From Eubacteriales bacterium mix99 (lineage in GTDB: Bacteria > Bacillota > Clostridia > Caldicoprobacterales > DTU083), in NCBI GenBank assembly GCA_038396605.1, contig CP121690.1, forward strand, positions 2,508,356-2,572,355: 64,000 nucleotides of DNA, written 5' to 3'. The notes beneath the pieces were generated by a model. The model was not told the origin of the DNA, did not search any database, and was given only the letters and a program-made list of their open reading frames with translations. The position numbers and the translations under genes are program-made. This document shows, piece after piece, positions 50,304-54,850 of this stretch (positions are counted from its first letter, which is position 1; every line of letters starts with the position of its first letter).

Positions 50304-50557
50304 AGCGATCTCCCCCCTTGTCTTATCTTAATACTATTTATATTAGGCAAGCAGGGGTTGTATGTATCCTTAAAATCAATTTCACACTGAAATTATTCTA
50401 TCACATTTAATCCAAACGGGACACTGTTCTGAAAAAGATCTTCCAAATCTGTTCCTTCCCGGCAAACTGGTGTATAATAAACATGACAGGAAATCAGGAT
50501 TAAAAAGAAATCATGGATAAGAACAGCATTATCCAATGGAATGCGGGAGGAATTGAA

Positions 50558-52309
50558 ATGTCACTGGATGGGGTCCTGCTCAACGGCCTGGCAGGCGAAT
50601 TACAGACAGTCCTGGAAAATGGGCGTATTGACCGGATATATCAGCCGGAAACGGATGAAATACATATTCTGATTCGAAATAATGGTCAGAATTACAGATT
50701 ATTGCTGTCTGCCAGCTCCGGTCATCCCAGGATTCACCTGACCCGTCAGGACAAAACAAACCCACTTTCTCCCCCCATGTTCTGTATGGTGCTCCGAAAG
50801 CATCTGATTGGCGGAAGGCTTCTGTCGATTTCGCAACCTGGATTTGACAGAATTCTGATCCTCCATTTTGAAAGCCTGGATGAAATGGGAGATTGGACAA
50901 GGAAGAAGTTGATCATAGAGATCATGGGAAGACACAGCAATATTATTTTCACAAATCAGGATGGGAAAATCCTGGACAGTGTCAAGCATGTCAGCAAAAA
51001 TATCAGCCGTGTAAGGGAAGTACTGCCCGGAAAGTATTATACAGATCCGCCTTCCCATGGAAAATCAGATCCCCGCAAGGCAGGAAGGGAGCAGGTTCTG
51101 TCTTTGCTGACCTCGCAGAATCACAATGTCCGGCCGGAACGGATTTTGGCCGATTACTTTACCGGGATCTCCCGAACCACGGCAGAGGAGATTTGCCGCA
51201 TGGCGGCCCGTGAATCCGGCGGGCAGCAGGCAGACTGCGCGGAAAGGATTGCTTCTGCCTTTACAGACTTTTTTTCAAAGGTCCGGGAGGGATTGTTTCA
51301 GCCAATCCTTGTACTTGGAGAGCAGAACAAGCCGAAGGATATCCTGCCGTTTCCCTACGGGATTTTTCCCTCCGGACAGATGAAATCCTATCCATCCTTT
51401 TCTGATGCGCTGGATGACTACTTTATCACCCGGGACCGCATGGAACGAATCCAGCAGCGAACTTCCCATCTTCGTAAGGTGATCCGGAATAATATGGATC
51501 GCTGCACGAAAAAACTGGCTATGGAGTCGGCGGAAATAGAAAAGGCACAGGACAGCGAAGTTTATCGATTGTATGGTGAGCTGATCACCTCCAACCTTTA
51601 CAGGATATCCCCTGGTGAAAGGGAAGTAACACTGGAGAACTACCATGACCCGGATGGAAAACGTGTCCGGATTCCCATGGATCCTGCCAGGTCGCCTTCC
51701 CAAAATGCCCAGGCCTACTTTAAAAAGTATAACAAGTACAGGACGGTCGTTGCAAAGCAAACGAAGTTCCGAAGGGAAACCCGGGAGGAAATCACCTATC
51801 TGGAAAGCCTGGCGGAGCATTTGTCCATGTGCTCCGATGAGGCGGATATATCAGCTATCCGGGAGGAACTGATACGGGAAGGGTATCTTCGGAGGAACTC
51901 CGGGAAGAAGAAACCGCAGCGGCATGAGGTTTCCCTTCCCCATCATTATCTGTCCTCGGATGGCTACGAAATATTTGTAGGCAAAAACAATATGCAGAAT
52001 GATCATCTTACCCTGAAAACAGCCGCCGGAAAGGATCTCTGGCTGCATACCAAGGTCATACCCGGATCCCATGTCATTGTCAAGACAGCAGGGCGTTCGG
52101 TTCCGGATACCACTCTGCAGGAAGCTGCCAACCTGGCAGCCTATTACAGCAAAGGCAGGACTTCTGCCAATGTACCCGTGGATTACTGTCCCAGAAAGCA
52201 TGTAAAAAAGCCGGGTGGAGCAAAGCCGGGGATGGTGATCTATGAGCAGTATCAAACCATGTATGTCACTCCGTCAGAAGAAAAAGTACAGAGGATGAAG
52301 AAGCTTTGA
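50558..52309 (+). CDS. rqcH: Rqc2/RqcH ribosome quality-control protein (NFACT, fibronectin-binding family)
   Basis: A 583-residue NFACT protein that binds stalled 50S subunits and adds C-terminal alanine tails. NFACT-N begins MSLDGVLLNGLAGELQ, with RIHLTRQDKTNPLSPPMFCMVLRKHLIGGRL near 60-90. The helix-hairpin-helix region has LADYFTGISRTTAEEICR near 200. Two coiled-coil helices span about 270-435. NFACT-R at 465-575 contains YEIFVGKNNMQNDHLTLKTAAGKDLWLHTKVIPGSHV, given in parts. ATG at 50558 with GGGAGG at 50545-50550. It is isolated on the + strand, between gerM and the pyrimidine attenuator region. Confidence 0.92.
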   Translation: MSLDGVLLNGLAGELQTVLENGRIDRIYQPETDEIHILIRNNGQNYRLLLSASSGHPRIHLTRQDKTNPLSPPMFCMVLRKHLIGGRLLSISQPGFDRILILHFESLDEMGDWTRKKLIIEIMGRHSNIIFTNQDGKILDSVKHVSKNISRVREVLPGKYYTDPPSHGKSDPRKAGREQVLSLLTSQNHNVRPERILADYFTGISRTTAEEICRMAARESGGQQADCAERIASAFTDFFSKVREGLFQPILVLGEQNKPKDILPFPYGIFPSGQMKSYPSFSDALDDYFITRDRMERIQQRTSHLRKVIRNNMDRCTKKLAMESAEIEKAQDSEVYRLYGELITSNLYRISPGEREVTLENYHDPDGKRVRIPMDPARSPSQNAQAYFKKYNKYRTVVAKQTKFRRETREEITYLESLAEHLSMCSDEADISAIREELIREGYLRRNSGKKKPQRHEVSLPHHYLSSDGYEIFVGKNNMQNDHLTLKTAAGKDLWLHTKVIPGSHVIVKTAGRSVPDTTLQEAANLAAYYSKGRTSANVPVDYCPRKHVKKPGGAKPGMVIYEQYQTMYVTPSEEKVQRMKKL

Positions 52310-52435
52310 GAAGCCATCATATTTTGCGGCTGCCGGGCTGAACAAGTGGGGAATGGTTCTTGCACACCTTCCAACATTTGCACCAGTTCGTCTCATTTCC
52401 AATGGAATCAGGGAAGGTGGTCCGGCCAGCCACAC
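52310..52435. other. Short region beyond the orphan attenuator, no intact gene
   Basis: No gene of its own is evident. On the - strand, immediately after the terminator, an open stretch reads VWLAGPPSLIPLEM, which by eye resembles the GPPTLIP segment of some aspartate carbamoyltransferases, the enzyme encoded by pyrB; the similarity stops after about 15 codons and no start codon or ribosome site is present. It may be a relic or coincidence. Confidence 0.3.
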
Positions 52436-52566
52436 AAAAATGCCCTGACAGTCTATATGTCAAGGCATGGGGAAAATATATGGGCTCGTATGAATAGCAG
52501 AACGCTGCTCATACCATATATATACTCCTACCCTTGACAGCCTCACTGGACTGCACTTAAAGGGGA
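52436..52566 (-). promoter_or_regulatory. PyrR attenuator 3, orphan (no downstream pyrimidine gene)
   Basis: On the - strand just after uraA: a PyrR-binding-loop sequence (CTTTAAGTGCAGTCCAGTGAGGCTG split with TCAAGGG; arms near 52531-52566), an intervening region able to form an antiterminator with GAGCAGCGTTCTGCT, and a terminator GCCTTGACA/TGTCAGGGC plus T run at 52436-52466. In B. subtilis the equivalent element precedes pyrB. Here only 126 non-coding bases and then the 3' end of rqcH on the opposite strand follow. Confidence 0.8.
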
Positions 52567-52590
52567 TGGATTTATCTGTTGTAATGAATT

Positions 52591-53982
52591 TTATACACTT
52601 CGCTCTTTTTTGTTTCCGATATTCAGAATTAAGTTCATCAGGATACCGAATATGGAAGCGCCGGCGACACAGGGAATCTCCATTCCAAAGATTGGTATGT
52701 TGCCGCCAAAGGCATATTGGCCGCCAATACCGATTATCATAATGACAGCGATCACGGCAATATTCCGGGAGCAGAACAGATCGATCTTTTTCTCCACCAT
52801 AATGGCCACTCCCTGTGCTGCAATGGTACCGAACAGGTAGATTTCCAGACCGCCAATCACTGCGGTGGGAATGGAATAAATCGCATTGATCAATGGGGTA
52901 AAGCAGGAAATAATCATGGCCAGAACCGATGCAGCAATCAGAACCGGGACGGAAAACACCTTGCTGATGGCCATGGTGCTGATATTCTCGCCATAGTTTG
53001 TTCCGGCCGGTCCTCCTATGAAGCCGGAAACAATATCACCGATTCCATCCCCGATCAGGTTCCGCCCCAGCATATCTGCCAGATTGTATTTCTTATTGCT
53101 ATGCTTTTCCCTGGCCAGGTTGTTTACATAAATATCAAGCTGATAAATATGAGCCGTGGATTCCGGTATGGTGGCAATTGCAATGGGCATAATGGCTGCG
53201 ACCGCCATCCAGTTTGGTTTTGGAAAGGTGAAAATGGGAAGGGAAAAGATTCCTTTTCCGATTTCTTCAGCCGGCAGGGTTTTAAATAAATTGATACCAG
53301 TGGTCCACTGTATAATGCCTGCAGTCAGACATCCCAGTGCCGGACCCAGAATCAGGGGAAGCTGACCCCATATTCCTTTCAGATAAACGGAAAACAAAAT
53401 GGTTGAAATCAATGTCACAAGGGAAACGATCCATGCCATGTTGGTGGCCGTGGCGATTTGAGACTTTGCCACCCGGATCGTACCCAGGGCATCCACGGAA
53501 ATGGAAGCGGCGTCTGACATAGCATTCCCTGCCAGGGTTAAACCAATAATCATTGCAATGGGACCGGTTACTGTGGCAGGAAGGACCTTTTCGATGGAAT
53601 CCCTGCCGAAGCGATTGACAATCAGACCTGCCGCTATGGAAATAAAGCCTGACAGGACAATGCCAAACTGGGCCATTGCAATCTTCTCATCCAGTACATA
53701 ACCGGAGAGAGCTTTGGAGCTCATCAGACCGCTGATGGCAGCAACATAGGAAAAGCTGGATCCGTAATAAAGAGGAATCTTTTTTCCGGTCATCAGCAGG
53801 AAGCATATGGTTGCCAGCCCGCTGGCAAAAATAGTGGTGGAAATATGAAAGCCGGTAATGATTGCTACGGCTACGGTTGCCGGGAACATGACGATAACTT
53901 GCTGCAGTGCGTAGAGAAGCAGTTTCCAGAATGGGGGCCGCTCGTCCGGTAAATAACTGATGGTTTTTGAATGGTTACGCAT
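52591..53982 (-). CDS. uraA: Uracil permease / NCS2 nucleobase transporter
   Basis: A 463-residue NCS2-family nucleobase:proton symporter with about 14 helices. The start WKLLLYALQQVIVMFPATVAVA is the conserved first helix. Later motifs include YYGSSFSYVAAISG near 80, VLPATVTGPIAMIIGLTLAG near 145, IPESTAHIYQLDIY near 275 with the substrate-binding Glu, and GFIGGPAGTNYGENIS near 320. ATG with AGGAGG six bases upstream. It lies between two PyrR attenuators, so it is pyrimidine-regulated; this placement equals pyrP of B. subtilis and supports uracil as substrate. Confidence 0.93.
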   Translation of the reverse strand: MRNHSKTISYLPDERPPFWKLLLYALQQVIVMFPATVAVAIITGFHISTTIFASGLATICFLLMTGKKIPLYYGSSFSYVAAISGLMSSKALSGYVLDEKIAMAQFGIVLSGFISIAAGLIVNRFGRDSIEKVLPATVTGPIAMIIGLTLAGNAMSDAASISVDALGTIRVAKSQIATATNMAWIVSLVTLISTILFSVYLKGIWGQLPLILGPALGCLTAGIIQWTTGINLFKTLPAEEIGKGIFSLPIFTFPKPNWMAVAAIMPIAIATIPESTAHIYQLDIYVNNLAREKHSNKKYNLADMLGRNLIGDGIGDIVSGFIGGPAGTNYGENISTMAISKVFSVPVLIAASVLAMIISCFTPLINAIYSIPTAVIGGLEIYLFGTIAAQGVAIMVEKKIDLFCSRNIAVIAVIMIIGIGGQYAFGGNIPIFGMEIPCVAGASIFGILMNLILNIGNKKERSV

Positions 53983-54043
53983 AAAAAGCCTCCTGATAAT
54001 ATAATCTCTCCTGCCTGGTCATTTCATCCTGTGAAATGGTCAT

Positions 54044-54133
54044 AAAAAATGCCTTGACGTCCTCTGTCAAGGCACAATGGTTCACTTGAACCGTTTTGCC
54101 CTTGTCAGTCTCGCAGGACTGTCTTTAAAGGGG
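54044..54133 (-). promoter_or_regulatory. PyrR attenuator 2, between pyrR and uraA
   Basis: On the - strand: CTTTAAAGACAGTCCTG plus CGAGACTGACAAGGG (about 54099-54133) is a PyrR binding loop; then a terminator GTGCCTTGAC/GTCAAGGCA with six T residues (54044-54073). The stem-loop pair is that of UMP-controlled attenuation by PyrR. Confidence 0.88.
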
Positions 54134-54177
54134 TTCTCTTTTCTTATTTTATGGAATATTTTACGGAATAATGGAAT

Positions 54178-54850
<673 letters not shown>

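Follow-up and report, generated by a model that had tools for sequence, protein, structure and literature searches.

An orphan PyrR attenuator behind uraA in Eubacteriales bacterium mix99, a well-preserved relic of pyrimidine operon loss

The pyr operon of Bacillus subtilis contains three attenuation regions, AR1-AR3, located before pyrR, pyrP and pyrB, and the loop bound by PyrR has the consensus ARUCCAGAGAGGYU (both from PMC7430163). Here we analyzed a 64,000-nucleotide stretch of the Eubacteriales bacterium mix99 chromosome, hereafter the window. The locus is similar to that of B. subtilis in that it has three PyrR attenuators, in the order pyrR, permease, third element, with the same hairpin logic. 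Unlike in B. subtilis, what lies behind the third attenuator (att3) is not a pyrB operon but just a deletion scar and a convergent rqcH. Likewise, att3 resembles other RF00515 PyrR binding sites in being full-length and above the gathering score, but it sits behind the last gene of its operon, whereas the usual element precedes a gene. A literature search at the level of titles and abstract openings found no published report of an orphan PyrR attenuator. Based on sequence comparisons, att3 is almost certainly the leader attenuator of a pyrimidine biosynthetic operon that once lay between uraA and rqcH.

Three PyrR attenuators and the anatomy of the third

The genome (G000) is a single contig of 3.13 Mb with an estimated completeness of 97.8%. 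On the minus strand of the window the order is rluD, att1, pyrR, att2, uraA and att3, with rqcH converging from the opposite side. The three attenuators that a preliminary description had placed before pyrR, before uraA and after uraA are all present. The first, att1 (54749-54848), scores 33.7 bits against RF00515 (E 0.036), well under the gathering score of 54; att2 (54042-54135) reaches 49.5 bits, also under that score; and att3 (52432-52567) exceeds it with 56.3 bits over model positions 1-115. A whole-genome scan with RF00515 at E<=0.001 returned only att3 and att2; the same scan misses the weak att1, and other sites as weak may exist elsewhere.

The genome encodes the PyrR protein that such elements call for. 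Its gene, pyrR (54178-54714, minus strand), specifies a pyr attenuation protein/UPRTase (NCBIfam NF003549, 252 bits, cut-off 138) that looks normal and has PyrR proteins as its top PDB matches. The uracil-permease-type gene uraA (52591-53982, minus strand) passes the Pfam cut-off for the Xan_ur_permease family, and the best NCBIfam match of its product is 'uracil permease', at 228 bits below the model cut-off of 477. The convergent gene end reported earlier behind the third attenuator also stands: it belongs to an rqcH-type gene (50513-52309, plus strand) whose NFACT protein passes the Pfam cut-offs and scores below the NCBIfam RqcH_arch cut-off.

Predicted folds give att3 a complete set of anti-antiterminator, antiterminator and terminator. 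The putative PyrR-binding anti-antiterminator hairpin (52531-52564, minus strand), identified from folds and consensus comparison, displays the loop AGUCCAGUGAGGCU, which by eye agrees with the published consensus at 13 of 14 positions. The intrinsic terminator (52440-52468, minus strand), located by folding and a terminator scan, has a stem of 11 pairs with a U-tract behind it. The 5′ arm of the stem, CCUUGACA, is predicted to pair alternatively with UGUCAAGG of the upstream hairpin, which would form the antiterminator. When progressively longer 5′ pieces were folded, the anti-antiterminator was predicted first, the antiterminator at 120 nt and the terminator once the 3′ arm was included (136 nt). 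Folding of the whole element gave a z-score of -3.32 relative to dinucleotide shuffles, with 2 of 200 shuffles equally good.

The deletion scar and the proper place of the operon

The preliminary description saw no pyrimidine gene behind the third attenuator, and indeed no intact gene follows att3. What it characterized as 126 non-coding bases is not featureless; the stretch holds in-frame scraps of pyrB and pyrE. Read in the direction of uraA, positions 52435-52373 (minus strand) contain 21 codons, VWLAGPPSLIPLEMRRTGANV, which by blastx resemble PyrB at approximately residues 185-205. Identity is up to 62% over 21 residues (G024), and the best E-value was obtained with G015 (58% over 19). Positions 52367-52317 (minus strand) read VCKNHSPLVQPGSRKI, 16 codons followed by a stop, and are 62.5% identical over 16 residues to the PyrE C-terminus in G009, G013, G025 and G029. 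The stop of this relic falls on the exact protein end in G009, G012, G017 and G026, and 1-5 residues short of it in the remaining PyrE proteins among the matches listed. A nucleotide search (blastn) of the scar against relatives gave just short, weak matches; it was the translated comparison that revealed the scraps.

With 21 and 16 residues, the scraps are short, identities in the 30 best matches are about 38-62% for PyrB and 38-64% for PyrE, and the best blastx E-values, 1.6e-4 and 0.003, respectively, are modest alone and come from a small custom database. In an earlier blastx control against all ORFs of the loci, the best PyrB score was equalled or exceeded in 1 of 1000 shuffles and 92 of 1000 window pieces, and the best PyrE score in 3 and 102, respectively. 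That database included neighboring genes (rph, rdgB) with homologues in the window, which partly spoiled the control, and the test was therefore repeated with pyrB and pyrE profiles alone, for which 21 PyrB and 15 PyrE sequences were used. The pyrB relic scored 27.0 bits and the pyrE relic 30.9 bits, against best scores of 22.0 and 20.3 among 1500 dinucleotide shuffles. Best scores among 1500 other window pieces were fairly close (25.1 for PyrB and 26.2 for PyrE), and none of the 1500 sequences in any of these controls scored as high as the relic.

Both scraps lie in the order and on the strand of the operon, with 5 bases between them. Only 7 bases separate the stop of the pyrE relic from that of rqcH; in relatives, the spacing between pyrE and rqcH ranges from a short overlap up to about 600 bases (setting G021 aside). 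Such a scar would be expected from the loss of everything from about codon 206 of pyrB to codon 174 of pyrE. Since the pyrB scrap starts right behind the U-tract of the att3 terminator, a second deletion would have removed the beginning of pyrB. Between them, these deletions would have spared the attenuator, 21 codons of pyrB and approximately the last 16 codons of pyrE with the stop. Our impression is that the loss was fairly recent, because the scraps are still recognizable.

The original location of the operon is indicated by other members of the order. The sample comprised 30 genomes, 13 from f1, to which the window belongs, and 17 from three further families, f2-f4. At this locus, pyrB follows pyrR or pyrR and a permease in 14 of these 17: directly after pyrR in 7/7 genomes of f2 and 4/4 of f4, and after pyrR and a permease in 3/6 of f3. 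All 14 of these pyrB genes pass the TIGR00670 cut-off. In every one of the 12 genomes read to the distal end of the operon, pyrD and PyrE-type genes come next and then a convergent rqcH (G018 and G024 were not read to rqcH, and G021 has two other ORFs before it). PyrE in these genomes was recognized by mutual similarity and by likeness to family members matching TIGR00336, and the genes that we take to be pyrC, pyrF, carB and pyrK of these operons were named from sequence and gene order. No pyrB above the TIGR00670 cut-off was found in the other three f3 genomes; in two of them (G020 and G023) rqcH follows the permease at a distance of about 1.15 kb and 0.5 kb, respectively, and the third (G028) was read just 139 bases beyond the permease.

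By this synteny across the order, the proper place of the operon is between pyrR or the permease and rqcH, and we infer that it was lost from this place more than once. The locus shares with the f2 and f4 arrangement the upstream pyrR (with rluD before it where read), the convergent rqcH downstream where read, and a leader of the same sequence type. It differs in that the operon is deleted here and that att3 comes after a permease gene equipped with an attenuator as well. An intermediate order of pyrR, attenuator, uraA, attenuator and pyrB was absent among the genomes read.

Profile searches returned no pyrB, pyrD or pyrE above cut-off in the single-contig genome, and the pyrB model matched in 14/14 genomes used as a positive control. 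The sole carbamoyltransferase match is ornithine carbamoyltransferase, argF (447.5 bits, cut-off 280.85), and the sole carB above cut-off stops about 117 bases before it. The pyrF_sub2 model was uninformative, with no match above cut-off in the 13 family genomes, carriers of pyr genes included. The uracil salvage gene upp is retained (304.8 bits). Based on this gene content, we predict pyrimidine auxotrophy, with uptake and salvage as the organism's source of pyrimidines. The preliminary description had left open whether the pyr genes were deleted or moved. Deletion has direct support from the operon standing at exactly the same place in other families, from the scraps behind att3 and from the lack of pyrB, pyrD and pyrE above cut-off; relocation is unsupported for this genome and is wrong here.

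The locus in the window's own family

Within f1, convergent rqcH faces uraA, or another permease in G003, in 9/9 genomes read at the locus (G000, G001, G002, G003, G005, G008, G009, G011 and G012; G004, G006, G007 and G010 were not read). An earlier question was whether relatives conserve the orphan attenuator, and none of the other eight genomes read at the locus has kept it. G001, a draft assembly from the same genus, is 92-95% identical in pyrR, uraA and rqcH; about 11 bases, both stop codons counted, are all that separates the final sense codons of its uraA and rqcH, with neither an attenuator nor a visible terminator there. Given this absence, att3 is dispensable. G001 may have lost the operon independently, or further pieces of it may have gone later.

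The stem pattern GCCYTGACN{2,14}GTCARGGC occurs at 7 places in the 13 family genomes: three in uraA leaders, three just after uraA (G000, G002 and G005) and one at an unrelated site (G011). The reverse of the pattern, used as a control, was found once, in G000, where the stem pattern itself is found just in att3 and the uraA leader. By eye, similar imperfect hairpins follow uraA in G008, G009, G011 and G012, and none follows the permease gene in G001 and G003. The plain terminators after uraA in relatives are probably all that survives there of the same attenuator, retained since a 3′ end is useful. This suggests a next stage of decay in which the terminator half alone survives as the 3′ end of the permease gene. 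Blastx of the matching gaps in G001, G002, G003, G005, G008, G009, G011, G012, G020 and G023 (E<=1, at most the 8 best matches per genome) yielded no convincing pyrB or pyrE scraps; the strong matches of G003 were to the C-terminus of its own permease. A similar ORF of about 100 amino acids lies between the permease and rqcH in G002, G003, G005 and G020 (L049, L051, L053 and L169; by eye), and a Pfam search of the G002 copy gave no match.

Seven of the 13 family genomes searched do have pyr genes, which lie elsewhere than this locus wherever the locus was read. In these seven, pyrB and pyrD are above cut-off, and pyrE is above cut-off in four and below it (62-74 bits) in three. PyrB of G003, G005 and G006 is just 34-35% identical to PyrB of G016, while that of G009 and G012 is 66% identical; the low values suggest loss and re-acquisition of the pathway. 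G009 (L057, 7166-9002) and G012 (L060, 979-2631) have extra pyrR copies directly before pyrB at another locus, 63-64% identical to the pyrR of the window; the G009 copy is preceded by a PyrR element. In G008, which has no pyrB, pyrD or pyrE above cut-off, a PyrR attenuator of 46.2 bits (L055, G008:C58, 7389-7502, minus strand) precedes two ORFs that we take to be cytosine-permease-like and cytosine-deaminase-like, which would place salvage under PyrR control.

Present role of att3 and related elements elsewhere

With just scraps of pyrB and pyrE behind it, att3 is a relic leader and not a working leader of an intact pyrimidine gene. The function left to it would be termination of the pyrR-uraA transcript. 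Judging from its anatomy and the known B. subtilis mechanism, the anti-antiterminator would hold and the terminator would form when UMP-bound PyrR is present. Without UMP-bound PyrR, the antiterminator could form, and readthrough may then cross the scar and continue antisense to rqcH. The present role of att3 is likely that of a 3′ terminator of pyrR-uraA, and this terminator is perhaps still PyrR-responsive.

One alternative is that selection has kept att3 as a PyrR-controlled 3′ terminator, so that low UMP leads to readthrough from pyrR-uraA and antisense RNA over rqcH. Every switch part is intact, a scan found no second minus-strand terminator-like site between uraA and rqcH, and uraA would be transcribed mainly when PyrR is idle, which is also the condition for readthrough at att3. 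Nevertheless, G001 lives without attenuator or visible terminator here, and where a terminator follows uraA in other genomes of the family, it appears by eye to be the plain hairpin alone. Intact parts are equally expected after a recent loss, as the readable scraps suggest, and a recent loss would explain the intact switch without selection. We regard maintenance by selection as unlikely.

It is less probable still that att3 does not descend from the pyrB leader but was copied from the leader of uraA, with a second permease gene, since lost, as one conceivable source. The orphan has the same loop and terminator type as uraA leaders in the family, to which it is 80-89% identical across about 34 bases around the loop, and permeases have been swapped at this locus (the G003 permease is just 31% identical to the UraA of the window). 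However, the scar right behind att3 derives from pyrB and pyrE, not from a permease. The loop region is also somewhat closer to leaders before pyrB or permease-pyrB in the other families (84-97% identical, most 89-94%; 13 of 14 with a match) than to its own uraA leader (80%), a difference of a few bases.

More speculative is the idea that the abandoned att3 was recruited as a metabolite-gated 3′ end, through which starvation would open antisense transcription into rqcH and link pyrimidine status to ribosome quality control; we consider this highly improbable. Least probable of all is a short terminated RNA acting as a sponge that titrates PyrR, to which the near-consensus loop and one weak promoter-like site (9/12) upstream within uraA (52760-52733) might point, but promoter-like sites are no more frequent than in shuffles (10 versus a mean of 7.1, sd 2.7), the sponge would amount to at most one copy per operon transcript, in cis to the target it should relieve, and the element has not been retained in the eight other family genomes read, its absence from same-genus G001 arguing against an important role. 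Neither the sponge nor the antisense gate has positive support.

Taken together, att3 is a well-preserved relic of gene loss and not a new kind of regulator; the element is of an ordinary kind, and it is its preservation that is unusually clear. The locus offers a clean case in which an operon is lost, its RNA switch is intact, and scraps of the first and last genes mark the deletion. Considered with relatives devoid of pyr genes, it points to repeated origins of pyrimidine auxotrophy in the order. It also serves as a warning that RNA-family annotation alone may assign regulation to genes that are already gone.

A class-wide PyrR scan of 393 genomes, with stricter filters and few candidates scored per genome, showed by eye no second element about 1.6 kb downstream among the matches listed. 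At 80 uraA loci, a loose match to the loop, with up to 3 mismatches permitted, was found downstream of uraA in three (L088, L122 and L143). The class-level genomes also include at least four with tandem PyrR elements on one strand, 12-17 bases apart (G065:C38:37150-37356, G155:C30:121356-121583, G251:C1:1780881-1781093 and G403:C31:61457-61675), which are possibly double attenuators.
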